Origin: Dehalococcoidia bacterium
Lineage (GTDB): Bacteria; Chloroflexota; Dehalococcoidia; Dehalococcoidales; BS750m-G39
DNA: 36,852 nucleotides
Reading direction: 5' to 3'
NCBI GenBank assembly: GCA_011176635.1
Contig: DUEC01000037.1
Span: 1 to 36,852 of the forward strand
The notes below the pieces were generated by a model. The model did not search any database and was not told the DNA's origin. It saw only the letters and a list, made by a program, of their open reading frames with translations. Made by a program: the position numbers and the translations under genes. Of the stretch, positions 12,875-32,702 are shown one piece after another; within the stretch, counting starts at the first letter, position 1; each line of letters begins with the position of its first letter.

Positions 12875-15217
12875 TTATTTTTGTCCTTTCTCCCTCTTTT
12901 TCTTTAGCGCCCAGAAAACCTTCTCCGGCTGTGCCGGAAGGTCCTTTATCCAGACCCCCGTAGCATCATGAATGGCACTGACTATTGATGGTGGAGCACT
13001 GCAGCAACTCCCCTCGCTGGCTTCTTTAGCGCCAAAGGGGCCATAGGGGTCGTTGGTTATTACGTGTATGACCTGAGTCATTGGCGCTTCGTAGGCGCGA
13101 GGTCGCTTGTAATCTACCAGATTGGGGTTGAGGGTCTGCCCACTATCCATCTTAAACTCCTCATACACGGCGGCTGATATCCCCTGGTGATATGAACCAC
13201 CCTGGACTTGAGTCTCTACCGCCTGGGTATTTAGTGGGAAACCACAATCGTGAGCGATCACATTATTATCGGTACATTTTACCACGCCTGTCTCCACATC
13301 CACCTCCACCTCGCTCGCCTGGGCGGTGAAGCTATAGTTGGTACCGATGTCGCCCACCCCTTTACTGAAATCAGCCAGGCCATACATTGATATTCCCTGG
13401 GTGGAATAGCCGCGGCCAATGATGACCTTGCCCGGTGTCTCGTAGCAGGCAATCCTCACCAGCCTTTCCCAGGCCATGTTCCTTTCGGGACTGGACTTAA
13501 CAAAGACCTTCTTATCTTTAATATCTACATCCCCCGGTTTTACGCCAAACTGCTGCGCGGCGACCTCAAGGAGCTGACTTTTAGCATCCTCGGCTGCCTT
13601 CGTTGCCGCCTCGCCGGCGTGCACGGTGACCCGGCTCCCATAGCTACCGGGGTCAACTGGTGTAAACGCCGAATCCACCCTCTTCAGGTCTATGTCCTCC
13701 AGTCTTATGCCAAGCACTTCGGCAACAATAGCGCTCATTATGGTGTCTGAACCCTGCCCGACATCGGTGGCGCCGGTCAGATAGTTGACACTCCCGTCCT
13801 CGCATACCCTTACGATGGCGGCGCAAGCGTTGTGGGCACTCAGCTTCGTCCCACTGTTATAAGTTGCCGCGGCAAAACCCATGCCGTAGGCCGTGTCTCC
13901 TTCGACCTTTTTCTGTCCCTTTCTCGCTTTCCAGTTTACCGCCTCGGCGACCTTCTCGATGCATTCCTGTACGCCACAGGTCGCCACATGCACATCGTTA
14001 ACCGTTTCATAAATCTCGCCCGGCTTGGGGTTTTCAATGGAATTCTTAAGCCTGATTTCCACCGGGTCTAATCCAAGTTCTTCGGCTATCATGTCCAGCT
14101 GGACATCGGCAGCAAACCGGCTGTGGTATAGCCCGTGTCCTCTCATCGCTGCCGAACTGGGGTTATTGGTAAAGTAGTTATAGGCGTCATATTTGAAATT
14201 AGGTAGCTTGTAGGGCAGCGTCTGACAGGTACCAACAAGAAACATGGTAAGCGGGCTGATCCGGGTGTAGGCACCCCCGTCAGCAACCGCCTTGAGAGAG
14301 GTAGCCTTTAATATGCCATCTTTGGTGACCCCTGTCTTGACGGTAATCCACATGGGGTGACGCCGCAGGTCGGTGGTGAGGGCATCAAACTGGCTGGTCA
14401 CAAACTTCACCGGCCGACCGGTCTTTTTGGCTAGCATGACCGCCGAGAAATCAGCCGGCGTCATGTCGTTCTTGGTGCCACCAAAATCAGAGCCGATAAT
14501 GGGTGTTATTATCCGTACGTTGCTCAAGGGCAGATCAAAGCACTTGGCTAGAATCCGGTAGGGAAAATATGGGCTCCCCTTGGCCCCGATATAGACGATA
14601 CGCTCGGGGTCAGGCCAATAGGCAACCACTGCCGGCGGCTCTAGATATCCTTTGGCCATTCGGGGGGTCTGGAAGGTATCCTCCCGAACAAGGTAAGACT
14701 CAGCGAAGGCTTTGTCGACATCGCCGAAGTTCCAATGGTACTCAACACAAATGTTACCCGGACGGTCATCGTGAACCAGGGGTGCCCCTTCTTGCATAGC
14801 CTCGGAGGGAGTAAAAACGCCAGGAAGTGGTTCATAATCTACCTCAATAAGGTCACAGGCCTCTTGAGCCGTATCCTCATCAACGGCGGCCACCGCCGCT
14901 ACCCCTTCGTATTGATAGCGCACCTTTTCCACTGCCAGGGGCTCTTCGTCACGGGTCGGCCCGCTCCAACCCCACTTGAAACCGCCAAAGTCCTTGCCGG
15001 TAGTCACCGCTTTTACACCGGGCAAAGCCTCGGCCTTGCTGGTGTCAATGTTCAGTATCCTGGCATGGGCATAAGGGCTTCTGTTTATCTGGCCCCATAA
15101 CATATTGGCTACTTCAATATCGGCGGCATACTTTGCCTGGCCAGTAACCTTGGCCCTGGCGTCTACCCGTGGTATCGCTTTGCCTAAAATCGAATAATTC
15201 CCGAAAGTTTCGTCCAT
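12875..15217 (-). CDS. Molybdenum hydroxylase (xanthine dehydrogenase family), molybdopterin-binding large subunit; resembles 4-hydroxybenzoyl-CoA reductase alpha
   Basis: GSDFGGTKND, AAMRGHGLYHSRFAADVQLDMIAEELGLDPVEIRLKN, TGATDVGQGSDT, GPFGAKEASEG. Confidence 0.92.
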   Translation of the reverse strand: MDETFGNYSILGKAIPRVDARAKVTGQAKYAADIEVANMLWGQINRSPYAHARILNIDTSKAEALPGVKAVTTGKDFGGFKWGWSGPTRDEEPLAVEKVRYQYEGVAAVAAVDEDTAQEACDLIEVDYEPLPGVFTPSEAMQEGAPLVHDDRPGNICVEYHWNFGDVDKAFAESYLVREDTFQTPRMAKGYLEPPAVVAYWPDPERIVYIGAKGSPYFPYRILAKCFDLPLSNVRIITPIIGSDFGGTKNDMTPADFSAVMLAKKTGRPVKFVTSQFDALTTDLRRHPMWITVKTGVTKDGILKATSLKAVADGGAYTRISPLTMFLVGTCQTLPYKLPNFKYDAYNYFTNNPSSAAMRGHGLYHSRFAADVQLDMIAEELGLDPVEIRLKNSIENPKPGEIYETVNDVHVATCGVQECIEKVAEAVNWKARKGQKKVEGDTAYGMGFAAATYNSGTKLSAHNACAAIVRVCEDGSVNYLTGATDVGQGSDTIMSAIVAEVLGIRLEDIDLKRVDSAFTPVDPGSYGSRVTVHAGEAATKAAEDAKSQLLEVAAQQFGVKPGDVDIKDKKVFVKSSPERNMAWERLVRIACYETPGKVIIGRGYSTQGISMYGLADFSKGVGDIGTNYSFTAQASEVEVDVETGVVKCTDNNVIAHDCGFPLNTQAVETQVQGGSYHQGISAAVYEEFKMDSGQTLNPNLVDYKRPRAYEAPMTQVIHVITNDPYGPFGAKEASEGSCCSAPPSIVSAIHDATGVWIKDLPAQPEKVFWALKKKREKGQK

Positions 15218-15218
15218 T

Positions 15219-15704
15219 CTACTGACCTCCTCGCATCTCTCTAGCTGCTATTTCTATGGCTTCGATATATTTAACGTAACCTTCGTCGGCGCACAGGTTA
15301 CCCTGTATCGCCTCTTTTACTTCTTCCCGCGTTGGGTTAGTATTCTCATCCAGTAATGCCTTCGCCGACATCACCATCCCCGGGGTGCAGAACCCGCACT
15401 CTATAGCGCCATGGTCGATCATTGCCTGCTGGATAGGGTGCAGCTTGTCACCATCAGCCACCCCTTCAATGGTGGTAACTTCACGGCCATTAGTCTGGAG
15501 CGCCAGTACCGAGCAGGACCTGACCGCCTTGCCATCAATATTAACGGTGCAGGCACCGCAAGCACTGTCCAGACAACCCACCTTGGCGCCGGTCAGCTTA
15601 AGTTCCTGCCTGAGCAAGTCCACGAGTAAGGTCTCCGCTTTCACCTCTAGCTCATAAGGTTTGCCGTTAACGGTTAATTTTAATTCCTTCATTTCACCTT
15701 TCAT
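15219..15704 (-). CDS. Molybdenum hydroxylase 2Fe-2S small subunit; CRC motif replaced by CAD
   Basis: GCLDSACGACTVNIDGKAVRSC, IECGFCTPGMVMSAKALL, GNLCADEGYVKY. Confidence 0.93.
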   Translation of the reverse strand: MKGEMKELKLTVNGKPYELEVKAETLLVDLLRQELKLTGAKVGCLDSACGACTVNIDGKAVRSCSVLALQTNGREVTTIEGVADGDKLHPIQQAMIDHGAIECGFCTPGMVMSAKALLDENTNPTREEVKEAIQGNLCADEGYVKYIEAIEIAAREMRGGQ

Positions 15705-15717
15705 TCTATACTTCCTA

Positions 15718-16590
15718 TCACGCTGCCTTGGCTCTTTCCAGAGCTAGCTGGGCTACTCGCTTCACGAAGACCTTCACCATCTCCCTCCGGTATTCTATTG
15801 AACCATGAACATCAGCGGGGGGGGTAGCTTCGGTTGAGGCTACCTCACCAGCCTTGGTAAGCAGGCCGTTGTTAATCGTCTTTCCGATTAGTAGCTTTTC
15901 TGCCTTTTTAGCCCTTAACGGGACGGAAGCAGCATTGCTAAGAGCAATTCGAGCGTCCCCGCACCCGCCCTTTGAGTCCAAGGTGATTGACACTGCTGCC
16001 CCGATAATGCTCATATCCCCTTTCATTACCATGAGTTTCTCGTAGGCAGTACCGGTGTGAGCTGGCGGGGTCGGCACCTGAATTTCAGTGAGCATTTCAT
16101 TGGGTTCTAGGGCTACCTCAAGATAGTCCTTGGAGAATTCTTCCGCCTCAACAATTCTCTCTCCGGCGGAACTGGCCAGCTTTAGCTTAGCCTTCAGGGC
16201 GATTAAGACCGGGGCCGGGTCGCCGGCCGGGTCACCGTGGCAGATGTTGCCACCAATCGTGCCCCAGTTTCTAGTCTGAATTGTGGCCAGATTTCCCTCC
16301 ATCTCGCTGAGCACTCCGAAATGCTTTTGGATAACCGGAGATTTCTCTATAGCTCGATGTATGGTCAGCGCCCCGATTCTCAAGCCCTTGCCCTCATCGT
16401 ATTTTATATAGTCCAGATCGGTTATGCCCTTGAGGTCAATCAGGTATTCGGGGGTGAGCAGGCGTTGCTTCATGACAACCAGCATCGATTGCCCACCGGC
16501 GATTATTTTAGCCTCTTCTTTATACTTGGCAAGCAGGGAAAGGGCTTCCCTAACTGTTTTGGGAGCGAAATACTCAAAAGCAGCTATCAT
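15718..16590 (-). CDS. Molybdenum hydroxylase FAD-binding medium subunit
   Basis: KIIAGGQSMLVVMKQRL, TRNWGTIGGNICHGDPAGDPAPVLIAL. Confidence 0.93.
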   Translation of the reverse strand: MIAAFEYFAPKTVREALSLLAKYKEEAKIIAGGQSMLVVMKQRLLTPEYLIDLKGITDLDYIKYDEGKGLRIGALTIHRAIEKSPVIQKHFGVLSEMEGNLATIQTRNWGTIGGNICHGDPAGDPAPVLIALKAKLKLASSAGERIVEAEEFSKDYLEVALEPNEMLTEIQVPTPPAHTGTAYEKLMVMKGDMSIIGAAVSITLDSKGGCGDARIALSNAASVPLRAKKAEKLLIGKTINNGLLTKAGEVASTEATPPADVHGSIEYRREMVKVFVKRVAQLALERAKAA

Positions 16591-16669
16591 TTGACCTCCT
16601 CAATTCAAAAGTCACTATATCATATAAAACCTGGCAGGTTCCCGTCAAGGTTGCTCGTAAGCTCCCGGT

Positions 16670-16700
16670 TCGCGCCTTCAAGTCGCGCCAGGGGTACCAC
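16670..16700 (+). repeat. Direct repeat copy 2 (attR-like), 3' fragment of tRNA-Arg
   Basis: TCGCGCCTTCAAGTCGCGCCAGGGGTACCAC; no 5' tRNA half upstream; same orientation as the intact tRNA. Confidence 0.85.
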
Positions 16701-16731
16701 TTTAAAGATATAGCTTAAGGACTTGTGTGGC

Positions 16732-17733
16732 TTAGGCTGATAGCAGCTCCTTGAATTTGGCGGTCAGGGCCGGTAAGACCTCTTTGTAATCGGCGACGAT
16801 GCCGAAGTGGGCTACGTTGAAGATATTAGCCTCTTTATCATTGTTTATGGCCACGATGTACTTTGAGCCCAGGCAGCCGCCGATGTGCTGTATGGCCCCG
16901 GAGAGGCCCACGGCTATGTATAGCTTGGGGCTGACCACCTTGCCTGTCTGGCCTATCTGGAGCGTCATCGGCGCCCAGCCCTCGTCGCAGGCGGGCCGGG
17001 TAGCGCCGACAGCGCCGCCCAGGACGCTAGCCAGCTCCCTTAACATCTCGAAGCTTTGAGCGCTGCCTATGCCGCGCCCGCCGCTAACCACCACCTCGGC
17101 GTCCTCCAGCTTCACCCCTTCCACCTCCTCTTTTATCCGCTCGACGACCTTGACCTTAAGCGCTGCAGGGTCGAGCTTGCCTTCTACGGGGATAACCTCG
17201 CCCTTCCGGGAGTCGTCGCGCTTGGCCGGCGGCACCGTCTTCGGTCTTAAGGTAGCCATCTGAGGGCGGGCAGTCTTTGATACCATTGTGGCGTGGGCGT
17301 TGCCGCCAAAGACGGGCCGGGTCGAGACCAGCATTTTGGCCGAGTCAAGTGATAGCTCCAGGCAGTCCATAGCCAGTCCGCCCCCCAGGCGGCCGTTCAG
17401 TCGCGGGGCTAAATCGCAACCGATATCAGTATGGCCGAGAAGCACGATAGAAGGAAGCTCCTTCTGGCAAAGGTCGGCCGCCATCTGAGTGTAGGCGTCG
17501 GAGTTATAGCTATCCAGGAGGCTGTCTTCGGCAATATAGACCTTATCGGCGCCGTAGGCGATTGCCTCCTGCCCCAGGCCGCCTGCTTTGCCGCCCATCA
17601 ACAGGGCGCTTAAGTCCTCGCCCAGTTCATCGGCCAGCTTTCTGCCCACTCCAAGGAGCTCTATAGTGATTGGCGCCAGCTTCCCCTCAACGATTTCACC
17701 GCAGACCAGAACACCTTTATTATCCATTTTCAC
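16732..17733 (-). CDS. etfA: Electron transfer flavoprotein alpha subunit
   Basis: VVSGGRGIGSAQSFEMLRELASVLGGAVGATRPACDEGW...IGQTGKVVSPKLYIAVGLSGAIQHIGG. Confidence 0.96.
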   Translation of the reverse strand: MKMDNKGVLVCGEIVEGKLAPITIELLGVGRKLADELGEDLSALLMGGKAGGLGQEAIAYGADKVYIAEDSLLDSYNSDAYTQMAADLCQKELPSIVLLGHTDIGCDLAPRLNGRLGGGLAMDCLELSLDSAKMLVSTRPVFGGNAHATMVSKTARPQMATLRPKTVPPAKRDDSRKGEVIPVEGKLDPAALKVKVVERIKEEVEGVKLEDAEVVVSGGRGIGSAQSFEMLRELASVLGGAVGATRPACDEGWAPMTLQIGQTGKVVSPKLYIAVGLSGAIQHIGGCLGSKYIVAINNDKEANIFNVAHFGIVADYKEVLPALTAKFKELLSA

Positions 17734-17754
17734 ACCCTCCGTTTATTCCTTAAG

Positions 17755-18549
17755 TCATAGCAGCTTAGCCAGCTTGGCGGCCAGGTTTTCGGCCGCTTGG
17801 CCGGGGCTGTCTCCGCTAATCATCTCGCACTCGGTCTTTCGGGACGGCACGGAGAGACCGGTGACCTCGGTGTGGGCCTTAGCCTTGTCCAGCTCCGGGC
17901 CTTGAGCTCCGATATCGGCCGCCTTCCAGACCGGGACCTGGGTGCGGGCGGCAATCATGATGCGCATTCCCGCGGGAAGACGGGGCAGACCGAGCTCACT
18001 GCTGGCGGTAATCAGGCTGGGCATAGGCGCCTCCAGCACTTCATAGCCGTCCTTGACTATCCTCTTTACCTTGAGCTTCTTATCGGCGGCTTCGATATCG
18101 CAGGCGAGGGTAACCACCGGGATGCCCATTATCTCGGCCAGAATAGAGCCGACCTGGCCGTTGCCCCAGTCGGCGGACTGCCGGCCGCAGAGGACCAGGT
18201 CGTAGGCGCCGATTTTCTCGATGGCTTTGCCCAGGACATAGGCGATACCGAAGCTGTCTAGGTCTTCGAAGGCTTCATCCTGGAGAACGAAGCCTTCGTC
18301 GGTGCCCATAGCTATGGTGTGCTTCACCACCTCGGCAGCCTGCGCCGCCCCCAGGCTTATCACCGTTATCTTGCCGCCTTGCTTGTCCTTGAGCCGGCAG
18401 GCCGCCTCGACGGCCCGCTCGTCAAAGACGCTTATCACCGGCGGCACTCCCGGGGGAGGAATGACCTTTTTGGTCGCGGGGTCAATCTTGAATTTGGCCG
18501 GCGGTATCTCGGGGTCGAGCACCTGTTTAACGCAGACGATAATATTCAT
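17755..18549 (-). CDS. etfB: Electron transfer flavoprotein beta subunit
   Basis: MNIIVCVKQVLDPEIP, DLVLCGRQSADWGNGQVGSILAEIMGIPVVTLA. Confidence 0.96.
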   Translation of the reverse strand: MNIIVCVKQVLDPEIPPAKFKIDPATKKVIPPPGVPPVISVFDERAVEAACRLKDKQGGKITVISLGAAQAAEVVKHTIAMGTDEGFVLQDEAFEDLDSFGIAYVLGKAIEKIGAYDLVLCGRQSADWGNGQVGSILAEIMGIPVVTLACDIEAADKKLKVKRIVKDGYEVLEAPMPSLITASSELGLPRLPAGMRIMIAARTQVPVWKAADIGAQGPELDKAKAHTEVTGLSVPSRKTECEMISGDSPGQAAENLAAKLAKLL

Positions 18550-18573
18550 ACTATTCCCCTCCTCTCCTGTAAT

Positions 18574-20607
<2,034 letters not shown>

Positions 20608-20638
20608 GCTTTACCTCCTGTTTCTTCCCTTATCTTTT

Positions 20639-21367
20639 TTAACCCTCTCGGGCTATGGTTCTTGCCTCCTCGGGGATAGGGGGAGGGACTGGCTCGGCCA
20701 GAATCCTTCTTACCGCCTCAAAGCGAGGGGGACAGGACTGGAAGCAGATGCCGCAGCCTATGCACTTATCCTGGTCGATGACATGGATTAAATTCTTGCC
20801 GCCTATTATCGCCTCCACCGGGCATTTCCTGAGGCAAATCATGCAGCCCTGGCACTTCTCCGGGTCGATATAGTATGAGGTCAGCTTCTTGCGGACATAG
20901 CTTTCCACCGATTCCAGGTCTCGCTTTAACTGCTCCGGGTCTTTGCCTTCGCCTATGCCCAGAGGGCCCATCTCCTTCAGCTGCTTGGTGAAGCTGGTGA
21001 CAAGTTCGGCGAAACGAATTCCTTCGGAGGCGGACACCCATTCAATCCGCAGTCTTTCCGGGTTCAATCCTATCTGCTCCAGCAGTTTCTTACACAGCTT
21101 GGTCATCTCCAGGGCGTGGTAATTGCCTTCGGTGACATAATGGCATTCGTCAAGCCAGCAGCCGCCGATAAACACCCCGTCGGCCCCTTTTAGGAAAGCC
21201 CGGAAGATAAACTTCGGGTCGACTCTGCCGGAGCACATCACCCTTATCACCCTCATGTTAGGGGGGTATTGATACCGGGAAACCCCGGCGAGGTCGGCAC
21301 CGGCATAGCAGCACCAGTTACATAAGAATCCTAAAATCTTTGGTTCAAACTCGTGACTCACAACCAT
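20639..21367 (-). CDS. MvhD/FrhD-like hydrogenase delta domain plus 2x[4Fe-4S] ferredoxin (BamF-like)
   Basis: GFLCNWCCYAGADLAG, MCSGRVDPKFIFRAFLKGADGVFIGGCWLDECHYVTEGNYHA, CQGCMICLRKCP and CIGCGICFQSCP. Confidence 0.92.
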   Translation of the reverse strand: MVVSHEFEPKILGFLCNWCCYAGADLAGVSRYQYPPNMRVIRVMCSGRVDPKFIFRAFLKGADGVFIGGCWLDECHYVTEGNYHALEMTKLCKKLLEQIGLNPERLRIEWVSASEGIRFAELVTSFTKQLKEMGPLGIGEGKDPEQLKRDLESVESYVRKKLTSYYIDPEKCQGCMICLRKCPVEAIIGGKNLIHVIDQDKCIGCGICFQSCPPRFEAVRRILAEPVPPPIPEEARTIAREG

Positions 21368-21401
21368 TTTTAAAGCTCCCTAAAGAGTAACTTTTTTTTC
21401 A

Positions 21402-24400
21402 TTAGCGGACCTTGACCAGGGCGGGAAACGCCGCGTCAATTCCGGCAAAGATTTGCTCATCAGTAAAGTGTTTCGAGGAAATAGCCCCCGTTGGGCACTT
21501 TGTATTACAGAGACCATCTCCCTTACAGAGGACGGGAATAACCCTGGCCTTTTTGCCTTCCGGCGTATCGTGCATCTCTATGGCGCCGTATTTACAGACC
21601 GCCTGGCACTGCCCACAGCCGACGCACTCGCTCTCATTTACCTCGCAGATGGCGCCAGAGGCGGTGACGGTATCCTTGGAGAGAACGGTTGCCGCCCGGC
21701 CGGCAGCTCCGTAGGCCTGGGCAATCGTTTCCGATATATTCTTGGGATAGTGAGCTATCCCGCAGAGGAAAACGCCGTCGGCGGCAAAATCAACAGGCCG
21801 TAATTTTACATGGGCTTCCATGAAGAAACCGTCCGGGTTCAGAGGCACCTTGAATAGCTGGGATATTTCATTGCTCGTCGCCGAGGGAATGACGGCGGCG
21901 GCCAGGGCCAGGGCATCGGTATCTATAGAGACCTTCTTGGCTAGAATAGGGTCGGTGGCGGTAACCCTTAGGATACGCTTGCCGCCCTCTTCAACAACTT
22001 CCACCTGGGGCTTGTCCTCCGGCTCGTAGCGAATGAACTTCACCCCCCGGTTGGCCGCTTCCCGGTAATAGTCCTCGGCAAAGCCGTAGGTCCTCATATC
22101 TCGATAGAGAATGTAGATATCCATCTGGGGGTTGAGCTCTTTTAGTTTCAAAGCGCAGGTTATGGCGTTACTGCAACATACCCGGCTGCAGTAGTTTCGG
22201 TCTTCGTTTCGGCAGCCCACGCATTGAATCATCACCAGGCTCTGGGCGCCGGTTACCTTCTCTTCCCCCTTGGCGATCTGCTCCTCTAACTCCAGCAGGG
22301 TAAATACCCTATCATCCTGCCCGTAAAGGTATTCGGTGGGTTTATATTCTTCGGCGCCGGTAGCGATGACGGTTATGCCGTGTTTTATCTCCTTGATCCT
22401 TTCCCCCGACTTCACCTTGGTTACGAAATTGCCCACGTAACCGGAGGCCTCGGTGATGGTAGCATCGGTATACTTGTGAATCAAGGGGTGCCGGTATACC
22501 TTGCTTATAATATCGCTCAAATAGGCCTGGACATCCATCCCTTCCAGGATGTAATGAATTCTGCGGGCTATGCCCCCCAGCTCTTTATCCTTCTCCACCA
22601 GATAGACCTCAAATCCCTGGTCGGCCAGGCTCAGGGCACTGGTCATGCCGGCTATGCCGCCGCCGACCACCAGCCCCCTTTTGTCCACCGGCAGCTCAAA
22701 TTCGGTTAAGGGCTGTAAAAGAAGGGCTCGGGCTACCGACATCCGCACGATATCCTTTGCCTTTTTGGTGGCGGCTTCCTTTTCCCGGGAGTGGACCCAG
22801 GAGCAGTGTTCCCTTATATTGGCGAATTCAAAGTAATATGGATTGATTCCCCCCTCGCGGAGCGTGTCCCGGAACAGCGGCTCATGCGTCCTGGGGGTGC
22901 AGGCGGCGACGACCACGCGGTTAAGCCCCTTTTCCCTGATGGCGTCGGCTATCCTCTCGGCGGCATCAGTAGAACAGGTAAAGAGGTCTTCCTGGGCGTG
23001 GACGACGTTGTCCAGGGTCAAGGCGTATTCAACCACCGAAGGGACGTCTACCACCCTGCCGATGTTGGCCCCGCAATGACAGACAAAGACCCCCACCCTC
23101 GGTTCCTCGCCGGAGACATCCCTTTCCGGTGGATATACCCTTTCTTTGGCCAGCTTCCCTCGCCGGTAGGCAAGGAGTTGACTGCAGAGGGCGTCGGCCC
23201 CGCTGGCGGTCATAACCGACTCGGGGATATCTATGGGACCACGGAAGGCTCCGCTGACGAAAATTCCCGGGCGGGAGGTCTCAATAGGAGTATCGGGATT
23301 GGTTTTACAGAATCGGTGAGAATTGAGTTCGATGCCGAACTTATCGGCCAATTTTTCCACGTCGTTGGGGGGGGTCAAGCCGACGGCTAATACAACAAGG
23401 TCGAACTCCTCCTCTTTTACTCCGTCATCGGTAGCGTATTTTATGGTTACATTCTTGCTTTCCGGCAGTTCCTTGCCTATCGATACGTAGCTTCTTATAA
23501 AGCGAATGCCGGGAAGATTCTCCGTCCTCTGATAAAATCGCTCAAAGTCCTTGCCGAACGAGCGGATGTCGTTGTGGAATATGGTACACTTGGCATCGGC
23601 GTCATGGTCTTTGGTTAAAATCACCTGCTTCTGGGTGTAGGTGCAGCATACGGCCGAGCAGTAGCTGTTGCCGCCGGGGATAACCTGCCGGGAACCGACG
23701 CAGGAAATCCAGGCTATATTCTTGGGGTGCTTGCCGTCGGAAGGGCGCCTTATCTCGCCTTCGTAAGGCCCGGTGGAGCATAGTATTCGTTCAAAGTCGA
23801 GGCCGCTTACCACGTTCGGCATCTTGCCGTAGCCATAGTCACCCCTCGGCCTGGCGTCAAATGCCTCGTAGCCCGGAGCCAGGATGATGGCCCCTACCTC
23901 TATTTCTAGCTTCTTCTCCTTTTGATGGAGGTCTATGGCGTCGTTCTTGCAGACTCCCACGCAGATGTTGCATTTCTCGTCTTTAAGGAAGAGGCAGGTC
24001 TCGGGGTCTATATAGGTGATAAGCGGCACCGATTGGGAGAAGTATATATGGGTGCATTTACTCAAGGACAGGTTTTGATTATATTTATCGGGGATTTTGA
24101 CCGGGCAGTACTCGGTGCAGGTGGTACAACCCCGGCATTTATCATCTAAAATGTATCTGGGCTTCTTAATCAGGGTTACCTTGAAGTCTCCGGCTTCCCC
24201 TTCCACCTTGTCGACATCGGTATAGGTCATAATCTCTATATTGGGATGCCGGTCGCATTCAATGAACTTGGGAGATTCGATGCACAAAGAGCAGTCGTTG
24301 GTGGGGAAGGTCTTATCGAGCTGGGCCATCTTGCCGCCGATAGCCGGCGATTTGTCGACTAAATAAACCTTAAAGCCCATCTCGGCCAGGTCAAGGGAGG

Positions 24401-24503
24401 CCTGGATACCGCTGATTCCCCCACCGACGACCATAACATCGCCGATGTTGCTTTCTTCTTCGGTACTGTTAACAATCTGTTCTTCAACCGTTTCTTTTTC
24501 CAC
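21402..24503 (-). CDS. HdrA-like protein with two FAD-binding halves and multiple ferredoxin motifs (BamE-like)
   Basis: VVGGGISGIQASLDLAEMG, CRGCTTCTEYCP, VGSRQ...YCSAVCCTYTQKQ, second VVGGGIAGMTSALSLADQG, CVGCGQCQAVC. Confidence 0.94.
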   Translation of the reverse strand: MEKETVEEQIVNSTEEESNIGDVMVVGGGISGIQASLDLAEMGFKVYLVDKSPAIGGKMAQLDKTFPTNDCSLCIESPKFIECDRHPNIEIMTYTDVDKVEGEAGDFKVTLIKKPRYILDDKCRGCTTCTEYCPVKIPDKYNQNLSLSKCTHIYFSQSVPLITYIDPETCLFLKDEKCNICVGVCKNDAIDLHQKEKKLEIEVGAIILAPGYEAFDARPRGDYGYGKMPNVVSGLDFERILCSTGPYEGEIRRPSDGKHPKNIAWISCVGSRQVIPGGNSYCSAVCCTYTQKQVILTKDHDADAKCTIFHNDIRSFGKDFERFYQRTENLPGIRFIRSYVSIGKELPESKNVTIKYATDDGVKEEEFDLVVLAVGLTPPNDVEKLADKFGIELNSHRFCKTNPDTPIETSRPGIFVSGAFRGPIDIPESVMTASGADALCSQLLAYRRGKLAKERVYPPERDVSGEEPRVGVFVCHCGANIGRVVDVPSVVEYALTLDNVVHAQEDLFTCSTDAAERIADAIREKGLNRVVVAACTPRTHEPLFRDTLREGGINPYYFEFANIREHCSWVHSREKEAATKKAKDIVRMSVARALLLQPLTEFELPVDKRGLVVGGGIAGMTSALSLADQGFEVYLVEKDKELGGIARRIHYILEGMDVQAYLSDIISKVYRHPLIHKYTDATITEASGYVGNFVTKVKSGERIKEIKHGITVIATGAEEYKPTEYLYGQDDRVFTLLELEEQIAKGEEKVTGAQSLVMIQCVGCRNEDRNYCSRVCCSNAITCALKLKELNPQMDIYILYRDMRTYGFAEDYYREAANRGVKFIRYEPEDKPQVEVVEEGGKRILRVTATDPILAKKVSIDTDALALAAAVIPSATSNEISQLFKVPLNPDGFFMEAHVKLRPVDFAADGVFLCGIAHYPKNISETIAQAYGAAGRAATVLSKDTVTASGAICEVNESECVGCGQCQAVCKYGAIEMHDTPEGKKARVIPVLCKGDGLCNTKCPTGAISSKHFTDEQIFAGIDAAFPALVKVR

Positions 24504-24539
24504 TTCGCTTCGTCCTTAAATCAAGTTTCTGGGACTTGC

Positions 24540-25697
24540 CTAAATCGCCTCCTGGATAATCTCGGTGATGTCTTTAATCTCGATGACTTTACTGTCCTCC
24601 AGGGTTAATTGGCTGTCCTTAAAATTGATGATGCAATACGGGCAGGCGGTGACCAGCACCTCAGCCCCGGCATCGATGGCTTGTTGTAGTCTCAAGTCGG
24701 AGAGCCTTTCCCCCTTTTTGGTCTCCATCCAGATTCTTCCCCCGCCGCCGCCGCAGCAAAGGGAGTTTTCTCTGGAATCGGCCATCTCAACCAGTTCTAA
24801 ACCGGGCACCTTCTTTAAGACCTCTCTGGGTTCGTCGTATATGCCGTTATGCCGCCCCAGGTAACACGGGTCGTGGTAAGTAACCTTCTTCTTATACTCC
24901 CTGGTGAGCTTTAGTTTTCCCTCATTGATAAGCTCGAATAGATATTGGGAGACATGGACCACCTCAAAGTTGGCCTTAAATTCGGTATACTCGTTTTTGA
25001 AGGCGTGGTAGCAATGAGGGGAGGAAACCAGGATTTTCTTCACCCCGTTATCGATAAAGGTCTTGATGTTTTCCTTAGCCAGGCGTTTGAATAATTGCTC
25101 GTTGCCCGCCTTGCGCACGCTCTCGCCGCAGCAGACCTCTTTGGAGCCTAGAATCCCGAAGTCCACCCCGAGCTTGGTCAGGATTTGGCCGGTTGCCCGG
25201 GCTACGCTCTGGACTCGCGGGTCGAAGGCCGGGGTACAGCAGGGGAAATACAATAGCTCGGTGCCCTCGGTGAAGTCCTTTATTCCCAGGTCTTTGGCCC
25301 AGTTGGCCCGGCCCTCCGCTTCCTGCTGCCAGGGATTACCGACACTGGCGATGCTGGTCATTACTCCCCGCAGGTTGGGGATGCTGGCCGGGACTACGCC
25401 GTCGGGGACTAAGAGGCGGCGCATAGCCCTCATGACATCGATAATTTTCACCCCGCGCGGGCAGCGCTCCACGCAGGCGCCGCAGGTGGCGCACAGCCAT
25501 ATGTCCTCCGAGCCGAAATCGACCACGCCTAACTGTGCCTGGTGGATAATACTGCGAACGAAGAATTTTCTCACCCGGTTCCAGGGACAGGCCGTCTCGC
25601 ACAGTCCGCATTGATAGCATAAACTGAAGGCTTCTCCACCAGTTTCTTTTATGCCGTCTATTACCTCTTTAAAGGGGGCTAAGGCCAGAGTCTCCAT
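24540..25697 (-). CDS. HdrD-like (Fe-S)-binding protein with two CCG domains (BamD-like)
   Basis: CYQCGLCETACPW, CATCGACVERCP, KEVCCGESVRK, SLCCGGGGGRIW. Confidence 0.93.
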   Translation of the reverse strand: METLALAPFKEVIDGIKETGGEAFSLCYQCGLCETACPWNRVRKFFVRSIIHQAQLGVVDFGSEDIWLCATCGACVERCPRGVKIIDVMRAMRRLLVPDGVVPASIPNLRGVMTSIASVGNPWQQEAEGRANWAKDLGIKDFTEGTELLYFPCCTPAFDPRVQSVARATGQILTKLGVDFGILGSKEVCCGESVRKAGNEQLFKRLAKENIKTFIDNGVKKILVSSPHCYHAFKNEYTEFKANFEVVHVSQYLFELINEGKLKLTREYKKKVTYHDPCYLGRHNGIYDEPREVLKKVPGLELVEMADSRENSLCCGGGGGRIWMETKKGERLSDLRLQQAIDAGAEVLVTACPYCIINFKDSQLTLEDSKVIEIKDITEIIQEAI

Positions 25698-25732
25698 TAT
25701 CTTTTTTAATCCTCTTCTTTCGCCTTAATGTT

Positions 25733-26257
25733 TTAACCCTTGGCTAATCGGGCCAGGCTGTCCTTTACCGTCTTCAATCCGTGTTTTTTTACTAATGATT
25801 CCAGTCCTATCTCCATCTCCTCCGGCTTCTCTTCTTCTTCACCTTCCTCTTCCCTTTCTTCGTAGGTCAGGGCATCGGATAGGCACCACTGGACACATAG
25901 CGGCTCTTCCAGCGGCGGTTCTTCTTCACACATATCGCATTTTAGAGGGAGGTCGGAATCGGGGTCTTTGAAAAGGTCCCGGGACGGGCAGGAAGCCCGG
26001 CAGAAACTGCACTCGTCATATTGCTTGCCGTCAATGGTATAAATGTCTCTGCCGTTACATTCGGCTTCGGTATACTCGCCGGCCAGTACCGGAACATAAA
26101 TATCTTTTAGCGGGTCAAAAAGCACCCGAATCCGGGACCTCTCCGGGTTGGTGCTGCTGTATTTCGGCGCGGCGTGAAAGGCGGAGCAGACTGCCTCACA
26201 TGAACGGCAACCGTTGCATTTGTCGACGTCTATCTTGATTACCTTGACTTTTTTCAT
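25733..26257 (-). CDS. Multi-cluster 4Fe-4S ferredoxin protein (BamC-like)
   Basis: CNGCRSCEAVCSAFH, CSFCRASCPSRD, CDMCEEEPPLEEPLCVQWC; Glu-rich C-terminal stretch. Confidence 0.9.
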   Translation of the reverse strand: MKKVKVIKIDVDKCNGCRSCEAVCSAFHAAPKYSSTNPERSRIRVLFDPLKDIYVPVLAGEYTEAECNGRDIYTIDGKQYDECSFCRASCPSRDLFKDPDSDLPLKCDMCEEEPPLEEPLCVQWCLSDALTYEEREEEGEEEEKPEEMEIGLESLVKKHGLKTVKDSLARLAKG

Positions 26258-28275
26258 TTTTTAGAATCCCTCTTAGTGGCAGGTTTCTGGCTTTTGGTGC
26301 TCTTTGCCGCCTTGGCTTTTTTCTCTTTATAGACCCCTCTTTGTTCAAAGTCCTGGCTGACGTAATCCAGCCCCAGTTCTTCTAAAGTCTCTTTGGTGGG
26401 AATACCTTCGTTGTTCCATCCCTTGAATTTATAGTACTCGTCGAGCAGTTTAGCCTCTATCTCAGGGAATCTCCTCTTCCAGTGGTCTTCAGGCGGCTTC
26501 TCGTCGGCTCGCCTCATGCCCCTTCTGACGTTAATGGCTCTAATTAGAGTCCGGTTCCTTCTGGCTATCTGCCATAGTTTAGCTTCATCGATGTCCATCC
26601 CGGTGGCGGATGAGATTAACCTGGGCAAATTGTGGATATGATAGGGAGGCTTGATGGGAAACGACGACAGGCCGGCGCAGATGCCGGTGGCGTCGTCGAT
26701 GTAGTGCATCGTCTCCTGCCATTCCACCAGCTCGCAGGTGGCTTCAGGCGTCGGGAAATTGGGAAAGGCGGTGCCCGGTTCCCCCCAGTTCAGGACGAAG
26801 TCCTTAATCTCTTCTTTGGGCACCTGTATCCAGTCCTTGACGAACTCCTCCCTCTCCTCTTTGGTAGGGAAGGGCGCCTGGGGTATCTGCCCCTCAATCT
26901 GGGTAATATTTATCTTCTCACCGGTGGACCACATGAGATAGTAAATAGGGTTCAGCGTCCCCAGTTTGATAGGAATCTGCTCATGTTTCTTAATAGTATT
27001 ATGGTCGTAGGCCTCTGCCCCCTTGCCAATCTTACGAGCCGCCCAGTAAACGCCATCGGCCAGAACATCTCCGATACCTTCCCGCCGCACGATTTTTTCA
27101 AGCAGATAGAAGAATCTCTCCTCGTTATCGGCGGGGAATCCGGGCATGTCCTGGTCGGTCAGGATGCTGGCTTCATAGAGCTCAACGGCGAAGGCCATAA
27201 CCTGTGGGGTTGTGTATCCGTCGACTCCATACTCCTGGGCCAGGCCGGCGATTCTAAAACCAAAATCCAGGTCCGACATGGCGGCCATGGTATAGGTAAG
27301 CTTGGAGTAGCATTTCATCATGTATCTTTCCAGTTTGGGGTGGGTAATTATTCCCCCGCATTTCATCGGGCAGTTGTAGCAGCTTATCAGCCGCTCCACC
27401 GTTTTGTCCTGGGTCTCTTTCCACTTGGCTTCGACTTCCTCGTTCCAAAAATTCTTTCGCCTTTCGCGGGCATTGCCCCAGGCGAAACTGGCGGTGTGCC
27501 ACTGCTCGTCGTGTAGCGACATCTCCTGGGGCGAGCCGAGCCCGGCTAAAATGGGCGGCACCCCCTTAATCGGATTTTCTCCCCGGTGCTGTATGTATTT
27601 CAGCACTTCGGTGCAGAGCTCAAAAAACTCAGCCGGTTGGGCGATATTGATGTCCTTGGTTCCGCGGACGGCTATCGCCTTTAACCCCTTGTCTCCCATA
27701 ACGGCGCCTATTCCGCCCCGGCTGGCGCTGGAGCGGCCCTGCTCGATGGAGGCGAAATAGACCCTATTTTCACCGGCCAGGCCGATGGTTGCCACCTGGG
27801 CTTTCGGCTCCTTCAACTCCTGCCTGATAAGCTCGGCGGTTTCAAGGGAGCCTTTGCCTTTAAGATGGCTGGCATCGCGTATTTCTACTTTGTCGTTGTG
27901 TATCCACAGATAGACCAGTTCGGGGGACCTGCCGCGAATGACCACTTTGTCGTAGCCGGCAAACTTCAGCTCCGGTGCCCAGAATCCTCCCATTATTGAA
28001 TAGGCCATTAACAGGGTCTGGGGAGAAAAGGTAGAAACAATGGTGCGATTGGCGCCCGGAGCCGGCGTGCCGGCTAGGATTCCGGCGCTGAATATGAGCA
28101 GGTTCTCCGGGTCGAATGGTTTAGTTTCAGGGGGGACCCTGTCCCAGAGCATCCTGGCGTTGGTACCCAGACCCCCCAGGTGGAGTTCAGTTAGTCCCGG
28201 GTCAGTTCCCTCTTTCTCAATGCTTCCCCGGGATAAGTCGATTTCTAGGTTAATCCCTGTCTCGGCAAACCTCAT
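26254..28275 (-). CDS. Aldehyde:ferredoxin oxidoreductase family, tungsten-pterin protein (BamB-like)
   Basis: AOR fold motifs (GGLGTNARMLWDR, SASRGGIGAVMGDKGLKAIAVRG, CYNCPMKCGG); C-terminal INVRRGMRRADEKPPEDHWKRRFPE...LLDEYYKFKGWNNEGIPTKETLEELGLDYV. Confidence 0.92.
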   Translation of the reverse strand: MRFAETGINLEIDLSRGSIEKEGTDPGLTELHLGGLGTNARMLWDRVPPETKPFDPENLLIFSAGILAGTPAPGANRTIVSTFSPQTLLMAYSIMGGFWAPELKFAGYDKVVIRGRSPELVYLWIHNDKVEIRDASHLKGKGSLETAELIRQELKEPKAQVATIGLAGENRVYFASIEQGRSSASRGGIGAVMGDKGLKAIAVRGTKDINIAQPAEFFELCTEVLKYIQHRGENPIKGVPPILAGLGSPQEMSLHDEQWHTASFAWGNARERRKNFWNEEVEAKWKETQDKTVERLISCYNCPMKCGGIITHPKLERYMMKCYSKLTYTMAAMSDLDFGFRIAGLAQEYGVDGYTTPQVMAFAVELYEASILTDQDMPGFPADNEERFFYLLEKIVRREGIGDVLADGVYWAARKIGKGAEAYDHNTIKKHEQIPIKLGTLNPIYYLMWSTGEKINITQIEGQIPQAPFPTKEEREEFVKDWIQVPKEEIKDFVLNWGEPGTAFPNFPTPEATCELVEWQETMHYIDDATGICAGLSSFPIKPPYHIHNLPRLISSATGMDIDEAKLWQIARRNRTLIRAINVRRGMRRADEKPPEDHWKRRFPEIEAKLLDEYYKFKGWNNEGIPTKETLEELGLDYVSQDFEQRGVYKEKKAKAAKSTKSQKPATKRDSKK

Positions 28276-28303
28276 TTTTTACCCCCTAAAGGCTACCTGT
28301 CCT

Positions 28304-29167
28304 CTAAATAGCACTTCCGGCTAAGTGTTTAGCCCTCCTTGCGCCCCGGTATTTCCTGGACACTGAATCGAAGTATTCATTGGCTTTCTCGGTGAGCAGG
28401 CCGCGGTATTCATTGAATAGAGCCGTTGCCTGGGGACGCAGCCAGTTATCGGGGAGCAGTTCCAGCGGCAGGTCCGGGTCGGAGAAGGGCAGCTTGCGGT
28501 ATTCATGGATAAGGTTGAAGCGGGCCACAAAACACTCGCTGGATTCAATAGTTTCTCCATTCTCTAATCGTCTCCGGTGCTCTTCCAGCTTGGGGTGATA
28601 CTCGCCCAGGAAACCGACGTACTTCTGGTGTATCTTGCCCAGGTCCCAGCAGTGGGAGACTATCTTCCTCGGGTCGGTACCGCCCTGATGCTGGGCACTG
28701 AAGATATTAACATATTCCTCGATATTGAGTCTCTCTAGCAGGTTCTTCACCTCTCTGGTCAGGTCGTAGGGTGAGATCCAGGTAGCCTCGCCTAGAGCCC
28801 CGTAGCCCATCAAGCCCAGCTCAAGGCGCAGCCTGTCCCTTGCCTGCCGCTTGCGTTCCGGTATGGAGTAGGTAACGATATTCCAGTTTCCGTCCCAGCG
28901 GGACTCCTTGCGCTGGAAAATGCGCTGCGCTCCCTCGGTCAGCAGGCTGTGCCCCTCATTGGTCAGCGAGTAGTAGCTTTTGCGGTTGCTACGCTTTGCC
29001 TTGAGGAGACCGGAACGGCACATCCTGGAGACCGCCGACCTGATAGCCTGCTCCGACAGGCCGAAATTGCTCAGCAGCCTGACCAGACTGCCAATTCCGA
29101 TTTCGCCGCCCCTATGGAGCACGTAGTCGCCATAGAGGGTCAGCATAGCGGCTCTAGGACCAAACAT
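28304..29167 (-). CDS. PaaX-family transcriptional regulator
   Basis: N-terminal wHTH LYGDYVLHRGGEIGIGSLVRLLSNFGLSEQAIRSAVSRMCRSGLLKAKRSNRKSYYSLT; middle domain W..YSIPE. Confidence 0.9.
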   Translation of the reverse strand: MFGPRAAMLTLYGDYVLHRGGEIGIGSLVRLLSNFGLSEQAIRSAVSRMCRSGLLKAKRSNRKSYYSLTNEGHSLLTEGAQRIFQRKESRWDGNWNIVTYSIPERKRQARDRLRLELGLMGYGALGEATWISPYDLTREVKNLLERLNIEEYVNIFSAQHQGGTDPRKIVSHCWDLGKIHQKYVGFLGEYHPKLEEHRRRLENGETIESSECFVARFNLIHEYRKLPFSDPDLPLELLPDNWLRPQATALFNEYRGLLTEKANEYFDSVSRKYRGARRAKHLAGSAI

Positions 29168-29208: not shown

Positions 29209-29348
29209 ATTATAATACTAGCATACGGCATCGGTCATGTCAATACTTTTTGGCTTCAAGTAATCTTTAAAAGATGGCTTGGGCTGGAGCTAGCCAGCCC
29301 GCCTTAAAACTGCTATATTTAGAGAGAGGTGGAGGCCCCGTAGATAAA

Positions 29349-30101
29349 ATGGCAAAAGATAGAAGCCTGGAGTGGGTTGAATACACCAGGGTGAATGCCA
29401 GGGTTACTAAGGCTAAGGAAAGGGTAGTAACCGAGCTCGGTCTGTCGATTATCGTAAACGGAAGGCATTTCGCCACCGCCATGATAACGCCCATGATGGA
29501 GAAGGAGTTCATCGTCGGGCATCTGTTCGGGCAGGGAATTATAGAAAATGCCGCCGACATAAAATCGATTAAACTAAAAGAGAACACAGCCGAGGTAACT
29601 TTGCTTAAAAAAGATAAGGCGGAGCGCTCTCCGGAAATACATTCCGATTTCAGGGTCAGCCGGGAAGATATATTCGGTGGGGTCAACGCCATCCTGAAAT
29701 CTAAAATATACGCCGAGACCGAAGCCATACACTCTGCGGGGCTGTTCAAACGGGGGGCAGAACCGCTCTGCATAGCCGAAGACGTCGGCAGGCACAATGC
29801 CCTGGACAAGGTTATTGGCTATGCCTTGATTAATAGGGTTGATTTCAGGGATACCTTTGCCGCCTCAACCGGGAGGATGGTCTCCGAAATGGTGTCGAAG
29901 GTCTGCCGGGCCAATATTCCGGTGGTGGCGACCAAGACGGCGGTAACCGGGTTGGCCGTTGACATTGGCCAGAGGTGCGGATTAACCATTATAGGCTTTG
30001 TCAGGGATATAGGGATGAAGATTGCCAAAGACAGTGACATAAGTATTGCCACTGAGAGGGGAATGAAGATTTACACCAATCCCCAGAGAATACTCTATTG
30101 A
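29349..30101 (+). CDS. FdhD-family protein lacking the CxxC sulfurtransferase loop
   Basis: EDVGRHNALDKVIGYAL, STGRMVSEMVSKVCRANIPVVATKTAVTGLAVDIGQRCGLTIIGF; start between 29274 and 29349 uncertain. Confidence 0.88.
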   Translation: MAKDRSLEWVEYTRVNARVTKAKERVVTELGLSIIVNGRHFATAMITPMMEKEFIVGHLFGQGIIENAADIKSIKLKENTAEVTLLKKDKAERSPEIHSDFRVSREDIFGGVNAILKSKIYAETEAIHSAGLFKRGAEPLCIAEDVGRHNALDKVIGYALINRVDFRDTFAASTGRMVSEMVSKVCRANIPVVATKTAVTGLAVDIGQRCGLTIIGFVRDIGMKIAKDSDISIATERGMKIYTNPQRILY

Positions 30102-31258
30102 TGAGAGACGGGCTCCCCCAAAATTTCGGCGATATCCTTAATCACCAGCTTTTCTTCTATCCCCTCGTCCTTTATGGCTTCGCCAAGCATGACGGCGCAG
30201 GTAGGGCAGGCTACCGCCAGGACGCTAGCCCCGCTCTTACCGGCTTCTCTTACCCTGATTCTCGACGGGCTGTTTTCGCCGCCGCCAAAGAAGTCGGTGT
30301 AGAAATTGGCGCTGCCCCCGCCACAGCAGAAGGAATTCTCGCGGTTTCTTTCCATCTCTACCAGCTCAACCCCGGGGATTGCCGCTAGTATCTGGCGCGG
30401 CGCTTCATATTCACCAGCGTGTCTCCCCAGAAAACAGGGGTCGTGATAGCTCACTCTCCTGTTGAGCTTTGAGGTCGGCTTTAGTTTTCCCTCTTTGATA
30501 AGGTCAGCGAGTATCCTGGTGTAGTGGAATACCTCTAATCCGCCGGGATATTCCTTCCGGAAGACATTATAGGCATGGGGGGAAAGGGTGATAATCTTCT
30601 TCACCCCGGCATCTTTAAAAAGCTGGCTGTTCTTCTCTCTCAACATCTGGAAGATGCGGCTCTCGCCGAGCATATTGACTTCGTTGCCGTCGCACTCTTC
30701 TCTAGAACCCAGGATGCCGAAAGAAACTCCGGCTTTAGTTAACAGCTCGCCCAGCGCTTTAGCGGCTCTCTGTCCCTTCTCATCGAAAGAGCCGACACAG
30801 CCGACATAAAAGAGGAACTCCTGCCCTTGGTAAGGCTCTATCCCCATGCCTTCGGCCCACCGCCCCCGGTTTTCCCTCGGCTCCCGGTAGGGGTTGCCGT
30901 AGGCTTCGATATTGCGGAAAAAACGGGCTACCTTGGGCATAACCAGCCCGTTGGCCACCACCTCTTCCCTTGTCGCTGTTATTATATTGACAATCTCATC
31001 GTTAAAGGGGAACTTGCAGCTCTGGACGCAGTTATTACAATTGGTGCAGGCATATAGTATCTTGCCCAGTGACTCGGACCACTCTATTTCCTCTTCCATC
31101 CAGGCCCTTATCAGCCACATTAAGCCGCCCGGTGAATAGCTCTTCAGGCGGAACCTGTTGTAGATGGGGCAGTTAAACTCCGAGTAATCTAAGGTCAGCT
31201 GGCAGTATCCGCAGCCAAAACACCTATGGATTATATCTTTATAGTCCTGCAGAGAAAT
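30095..31258 (-). CDS. HdrD/GlcF-like (Fe-S)-binding CCG-domain protein; probable non-canonical ATT start
   Basis: In-frame extension upstream of the annotated ATG at 31120 encodes ISLQDYKDIIHRCFGCGYCQLTLDYSEFNCPIYNRFRLKSYSPGGL, the expected first ferredoxin motif; then CTNCNNCVQSC and SFCCGGGSANF. Confidence 0.85.
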   Translation of the reverse strand: MSLQDYKDIIHRCFGCGYCQLTLDYSEFNCPIYNRFRLKSYSPGGLMWLIRAWMEEEIEWSESLGKILYACTNCNNCVQSCKFPFNDEIVNIITATREEVVANGLVMPKVARFFRNIEAYGNPYREPRENRGRWAEGMGIEPYQGQEFLFYVGCVGSFDEKGQRAAKALGELLTKAGVSFGILGSREECDGNEVNMLGESRIFQMLREKNSQLFKDAGVKKIITLSPHAYNVFRKEYPGGLEVFHYTRILADLIKEGKLKPTSKLNRRVSYHDPCFLGRHAGEYEAPRQILAAIPGVELVEMERNRENSFCCGGGSANFYTDFFGGGENSPSRIRVREAGKSGASVLAVACPTCAVMLGEAIKDEGIEEKLVIKDIAEILGEPVSHQ

Positions 31259-32638
31259 CTAGGTCACCTCCCAGTTTCCCGGATTCATGATATCGTTGGG
31301 GTCCAGCGTTTTCTTTATTCTGTCCATCAACTGACGGGTGTTGGCGTCCATCTTTTCCAGGATTAGTTTCTGCGCCGGAAGTTCCGGCTTCCAGACTATA
31401 CCGCCCAGCTCCAGGGTCAGCCGGTTGGTTTCATCCAGAGCCCCTCTGGCTCTCCCCGCCTCTTCGGCAACGGCGCGGTTGAAGGGGTAGGAGTAGGCGA
31501 GCATAACGCTATGACCATTGGGCAGAAGCTGTATGCCCAGTTGATAGAGCAGGTCGTACTTGTGGGCAATCTCGATGCCGCTCCGCCAGGCCTGGGGTAT
31601 TACCTCTATGGGCAGTATGGCCCCGGTGTATTCAAAGCCGCCGCCTTTCCTGAAATCGGCGGCGGTGGCGGCGAAGGGGGGCACGCCGAGGAACCTCTCC
31701 CGCAGCGGGGTCAGTGCCGGCTCTTCGGTTACCGGCAATATCTTATCCGGGTACTTCTGGAAAATCCGGTTGTGTAGTTCCTTCTTGGTCTCAAACTCTT
31801 CTTTTGACTGGCCGGAAACAACGATAATATAGAATATGTGCTGCGCCCACCTCGGCTTCTCCTGGGTGATAATGAAACAGTTCTCCAGGAGGTTAATCTG
31901 GCTGAGCTCGGCGATAATCTCCGGGATTAGCTCGACGCTGTCAGAGGAAAACAGCAACAGGTCTCGGAAGGCGGGCTTGGGGAAGAGCTGAATCGAGAGC
32001 TTGGTGACGATGCCGGTCGTTCCCAGCCAGCCCAGAAAGAGGCCCATGAGGTCGGGGAGGGGGTCGCGGCTGAACCATTTGGGGCTTACCGAGCATGAGC
32101 CCAGCCGGCATAGCTCACCGGTGGGCAGGACTACCTCCATGCCGTTGACCATCTGCGAGTTGACGCCGTACCTGGGGGTGAGGTGGCCGTGCCCGTGAAT
32201 AAGTATGTTGCCGACTATGGTGGCGGTGGGGGGCGACTCCGGGGTTGAGTGCTGGAGACCGGGGTGATGCTTCTCGAGGTAGGCCCTCAAAGCCGCCTGG
32301 GTGACGCCGGCCTCGATTACGGCGTAACGGCTGGCCTGGTTTACCTCGATTATTCTATCCAGCCTTTTCATGTCCAGGACGATGCCGCCCTTGAGGGGAA
32401 CGGTCAGCGCCGACAATGTCAGCCCCGCCCCCATCGGGGTAATGGCTATCTTTTCCCGGTTGGCCAGCCTGACTATCTGCTGTACTTCGTCGACCGTCCC
32501 GGGCATGACGACGCCGTCGGCCCTACGCGGTTTCTGCGCCCCCGGGTCGCGGGAGTAGAGATAAAGCTCTTCGGGGCGGTCGGAGACATAGTCCGCGCCG
32601 ACGATTTCAGCCAGCCGGCTTAAAAATTCCTCTTTCAT
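31259..32638 (-). CDS. FAD-binding oxidase, GlcD/D-lactate dehydrogenase-like
   Basis: GVVMPGTVDEVQQIVRLANREKIAITPMGAGLTLS...GGIVLDMKRLDRI; C-terminal DPNDIMNPG. Confidence 0.9.
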   Translation of the reverse strand: MKEEFLSRLAEIVGADYVSDRPEELYLYSRDPGAQKPRRADGVVMPGTVDEVQQIVRLANREKIAITPMGAGLTLSALTVPLKGGIVLDMKRLDRIIEVNQASRYAVIEAGVTQAALRAYLEKHHPGLQHSTPESPPTATIVGNILIHGHGHLTPRYGVNSQMVNGMEVVLPTGELCRLGSCSVSPKWFSRDPLPDLMGLFLGWLGTTGIVTKLSIQLFPKPAFRDLLLFSSDSVELIPEIIAELSQINLLENCFIITQEKPRWAQHIFYIIVVSGQSKEEFETKKELHNRIFQKYPDKILPVTEEPALTPLRERFLGVPPFAATAADFRKGGGFEYTGAILPIEVIPQAWRSGIEIAHKYDLLYQLGIQLLPNGHSVMLAYSYPFNRAVAEEAGRARGALDETNRLTLELGGIVWKPELPAQKLILEKMDANTRQLMDRIKKTLDPNDIMNPGNWEVT

Positions 32639-32702
32639 AGCTGCTTACATTCTAACATACCGCCAGCTACCGGTTCCCCGCGCTACTAGCCCAATCAGCG
32701 GT

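Follow-up and report, generated by a model that had tools for sequence, protein, structure and literature searches.

The locus considered here raises a simple question: where does translation of the second gene of a bacterial glcD-hdrD pair begin, when its reading frame opens directly after the stop codon of the first gene and offers no usual start codon ahead of its first cysteine motif? Both genes lie on the minus strand of the window (the whole 36,852-nucleotide stretch of DNA that was analysed), and the junction between them reads TGG GAG GTG ACC TAG followed, in the same frame and with zero gap, by ATT TCT CTG CAG GAC TAT. The closest copies retrieved by a scan of GTDB genomes were found in two other species, G005 (L003, contig C29) and G409 (L004, contig C23), whose proteins are, respectively, 86% and 82% identical to the window copy. 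The features on which the argument relies are the following:

30120-32663, minus strand: two-gene glcD-hdrD cassette, matching G005 and G409 without gaps at 84-85% DNA identity, with unrelated flanks.
31259-32638, minus strand: glcD-like gene with the Pfam domains FAD_binding_4 and FAD-oxidase_C, 459 aa, ATG start, TAG stop.
31264-31271, minus strand: extended Shine-Dalgarno (SD) sequence GGAGGTGA, which shares bases with the final sense codons of glcD.
31259-31261, minus strand: glcD stop codon, TAG here and TAA in both relatives.
31256-31258, minus strand: putative AUU start codon, 8 nt after GGAGG; ATT in three species, with TTG or ATG at the homologous or nearly homologous position in further relatives.
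31250-31252, minus strand: CTG at codon 3, a competing non-canonical start, 14 nt from GGAGG and likewise kept in the three species.
30095-31258, minus strand: HdrD/GlcF-like gene, 387 aa from the putative AUU start, with Fer4_8 and two CCG stretches.

The frame opened by the ATT runs for 387 codons to a stop ending at 30095. Its product showed a 4Fe-4S ferredoxin domain (Fer4_8) and two CCG domains over the Pfam cut-offs, the composition of an HdrD/GlcF-like (CCG-domain) subunit. The NCBIfam equivalogs GlcF, TfrB, DsrK, and LdhH all remained under their cut-offs and no named equivalog was matched, which leaves GlcD-like plus HdrD/GlcF-like as the most suitable labels for the two genes. Fer4_8 is matched from residue 10 onwards, and the first ATG of the frame, at 31120, is codon 47. 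As the preliminary description of this locus had pointed out, ATG, GTG, and TTG are absent between the TAG and the CxxCxxC motif. The first canonical start is likewise codon 47 in one of the relatives, and in G409 it comes only at codon 100, after both cysteine motifs; therefore, translation must begin before these motifs, and none of the canonical codons could yield the conserved protein. The substitutions that separate the three species mark codons 1-46 as evolving like coding sequence, with 19 codons changed only synonymously versus 5 changed non-synonymously, and with third positions making up 21 of the 28 variable sites. Purifying selection was also detected on the glcD-like gene in the comparison with G005 and G409.

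Several other genes of the window were noted. An fdhD-like gene on the plus strand (29274-30101) runs towards the hdrD-like gene, the last 7 bases of which it overlaps. In addition, the minus strand at 12875-29167 holds a redox cluster, adjoined by a PaaX-like regulator, with molybdopterin dehydrogenase subunits, an ETF alpha subunit, an HdrD-like protein, FlpD, a large FAD/Fer4 (HdrA-like) protein, a second CCG protein, and a tungsten-type aldehyde ferredoxin oxidoreductase.

The elements of the junction follow each other on the minus strand as GGAGG (31271-31267), TAG (31261-31259), and ATT (31258-31256), with a spacer of 8 nt between GGAGG and ATT. Thus, the coordinates, the frame, and the strong SD sequence given in the preliminary description were all recovered. 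The duplex of GGAGGTGA with the anti-SD has a calculated energy of -16.2 kcal/mol, which ranked second among the window genes examined, in contrast to the poor SD in front of the ATG at 31120 (-5.8 kcal/mol). A standard anti-SD was read at the 16S 3' end of G005 (GGATCACCTCCTTTCT); no 16S sequence was found in the genome of the window. The orthologue alignment proposed in the preliminary description as a check of the start codon showed the ATT in both G005 and G409, where the junctions read GAG GTG GCC TAA ATT TCT CTG and GAG GTG AGC TAA ATT TCC CTG. In both relatives, the order stop-ATT-TCY-CTG is accompanied by an intact GGGAGGTG SD sequence. GGAGGTG is identical across the three species, and their duplexes range from -15.3 to -16.4 kcal/mol, the two relatives giving these extreme values. 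The ATT and the SD were therefore retained while the identity of the stop codon changed between TAG and TAA.

Taken by itself, the conservation of one ATT says little, as many other ATT codons are conserved as well: of the eight ATT codons of the window copy at positions where the three species all encode isoleucine, seven were also ATT in both relatives. The argument for AUU is instead made by the stop codon in front of it, its distance to the SD, and the lack of alternative starts. On this basis, the HdrD/GlcF-like gene is very probably translated from the AUU placed directly after the glcD stop, which would be a real and conserved start, as the first of the two alternatives in the preliminary description had proposed.

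The more distant relatives are consistent with this assignment. Around 30 of them carry an ATG, TTG, or GTG at the homologous position or within a few codons of it, mostly 7-8 nt after GGAGG (the GTG of L005 being only a probable start), and in two of them, L008 and L009, a TTG occupies the exact codon aligned with the window ATT at the same 8-nt spacing. In the protein tree, the three ATT copies formed one clade with 100/100 support, and therefore the change to ATT probably occurred once. The arrangement is known from these three species only. No further stop-ATT members appeared in the class, order, and phylum samples, which added only more distant copies, or among the 84,980 genome species scanned. 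The idea that these genomes generally use stop-ATT starts was considered and rejected, as just 3 of the 26 matches to the pattern GGAGG-N4-9-TAR-ATT in the three genomes, the orthologues themselves, lead into a long frame that has no canonical start close by. Similarly, a search of about 120 kb for other genes with ATT, ATC, ATA, CTG, or ACG as candidate starts detected none, the one ATA match being internal to the HdrD/GlcF-like gene itself. A conserved hairpin masking the SD was also discarded, as the CUGGG...CCUAG stem of the window is weaker or broken in the relatives (alignment judged by eye).

The nearest competitor for the start is the CTG two codons on (31252-31250), absent from the preliminary description, which would shorten the protein by two residues. 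This codon is present in all three species, and CUG is a near-cognate of AUG, but its 14 nt from GGAGG contrast with the 7-8 nt found in most relatives. In addition, the TTG of L008 and L009 aligns with the ATT; L008 also has a TTG aligned with codon 3, although no SD is suitably spaced from it. Initiation at the CTG is thus unlikely, and ATT is clearly favoured as the predicted start because of its 8-nt spacing. A start at an internal canonical codon only, leaving a truncated protein or a dying gene, is what callers restricted to ATG, GTG, and TTG would suggest by picking 31120. Against it stand the purifying selection on codons 1-46, the loss of both cluster motifs that it would entail in G409, and the poor SD of that ATG, so that we regard it as extremely unlikely.

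The second alternative of the preliminary description, amber read-through into a fused GlcD-HdrD protein of about 850 aa, fared worse than AUU initiation. Both frames share one register in each of the three species, and no codon separates them, as a fusion would need; nevertheless, only one species has TAG as the stop, the other two having TAA, which argues against amber read-through, and a strong SD lies at the start position. In the more distant relatives, the second gene stands separately, in most cases in another frame than glcD, and has its own SD and ATG, TTG, or GTG, so the comparison of orthologues gave no sign of a conserved fusion. The proposed search for suppressors was equally negative: no pylS over the cut-off was found in the genome of the window, nor any CUA or UUA anticodon among the approximately 40 tRNA genes read by ARAGORN, an absence that is not absolute in an assembly 83% complete. 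With neither a conserved read-through stop nor a decoding tRNA detected, read-through appears very unlikely. Finally, an error of sequencing or assembly at the start codon might be suspected, as the relatives are metagenome assemblies and the genome of the window is a fragmented draft, but the identical ATT kept by three diverged species indicates that it is no such error, and we assign this explanation a negligible probability.

The infC gene of these same genomes also lacks an ATG, GTG, or TTG near its SD. In the genome of the window (L142/L225, G000:C22) and in G005 (L143, contig C21), its apparent start is ATA (GGAGGTAAATAGGAT ATA GTT AAG), and a similar ATA preceded by a weaker SD was found in G409 (L144, contig C61). 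AUA is an established kind of infC start, as in Staphylococcus aureus, and its apparent use here suggests that discrimination by IF3 operates in these genomes.

The comparison of the window with the contigs of the relatives by blastn revealed a single match, about 2.54 kb long in both sequences alike and covering just these two genes, with no comparable match in the flanks. Some 15-16% of bases differ among the cassettes of the three species. The family of G409 is a different one, and the copy carried by its other members, where present, is only about 50-57% alike. Horizontal movement of the glcD-hdrD pair is the simplest reading of this pattern and a probable one, mis-binning of the G409 contig being a possible alternative. 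Relatives of the second gene were also seen in Methanolliviera, Stahlbacteria, and one Lokiarchaeia assembly, which suggests wide horizontal movement. A tRNA-Pro (ggg) gene (L172, 9851-9927, contig C29) lies some 115-125 bases from the end of the G005 cassette and is a possible insertion site. A literature search found nothing on this enzyme pair in Dehalococcoidia.

The junction is best read as initiation at AUU that is coupled to the termination of glcD and that the extended SD rescues. Translation of glcD would end at the TAG or TAA, and either the terminating ribosomes, by reinitiation, or fresh 30S subunits would be held by the extended SD pairing, setting the AUU in the P site, where the initiator fMet-tRNA would start. 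As IF3 discriminates against AUU, the yield of the HdrD/GlcF-like Fe-S subunit is probably lowered and may respond to the level of IF3, by analogy with other AUU, AUA, and GTC genes; the gene would then probably be one of the few natural ones kept at reduced translation by AUU. More tentatively, the AUU could be a selected valve on a horizontally moving cassette, setting the ratio of FAD to Fe-S subunit and making a metabolic electron-transfer enzyme respond to IF3 or growth state through coupled non-canonical reinitiation. Few natural AUU-initiated genes are documented, and to this small class the present case would add an enzyme subunit from an uncultured lineage, with an AUU kept across species and after a probable horizontal movement. 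Gene callers limited to ATG, GTG, and TTG shorten such genes, here at the cost of one or both ferredoxin motifs. The pair offers a clean test case of whether subunit ratios are set by an AUU start combined with an extended SD.

Several known systems resemble this arrangement in part. In Escherichia coli, infC and pcnB are natural genes restricted by an AUU start that IF3 discriminates against; in contrast, the gene described here encodes a metabolic electron-transfer subunit, is second in its operon, and has no evident tie to IF3 autoregulation or polyadenylation. In S. aureus, cvfC1 (AUU) and ccpN (AUA) share with it an extended SD and a start conserved across species, and belong with citZ (AUA) to a set of AUU/AUA genes whose yield in poor medium was measured at about 10% of that from AUG (PMC13009471); phylum and gene are different, and here the start adjoins an upstream in-frame stop codon. 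Streptomyces sigR, whose GTC start is repressed by IF3 and sets the ratio between two products of an operon (PMC5472188), provides the parallel for a non-canonical start as ratio setter, although its codon is GTC rather than ATT, its operon encodes regulators, and its effect was shown by experiment, whereas the present case is known from sequence. Finally, as in known gene pairs coupled by termination-reinitiation, adjacent genes encode likely partner subunits and the SD lies within the upstream gene, but the restart codon here would be an AUU right after the stop instead of an ATGA or TGATG overlap.
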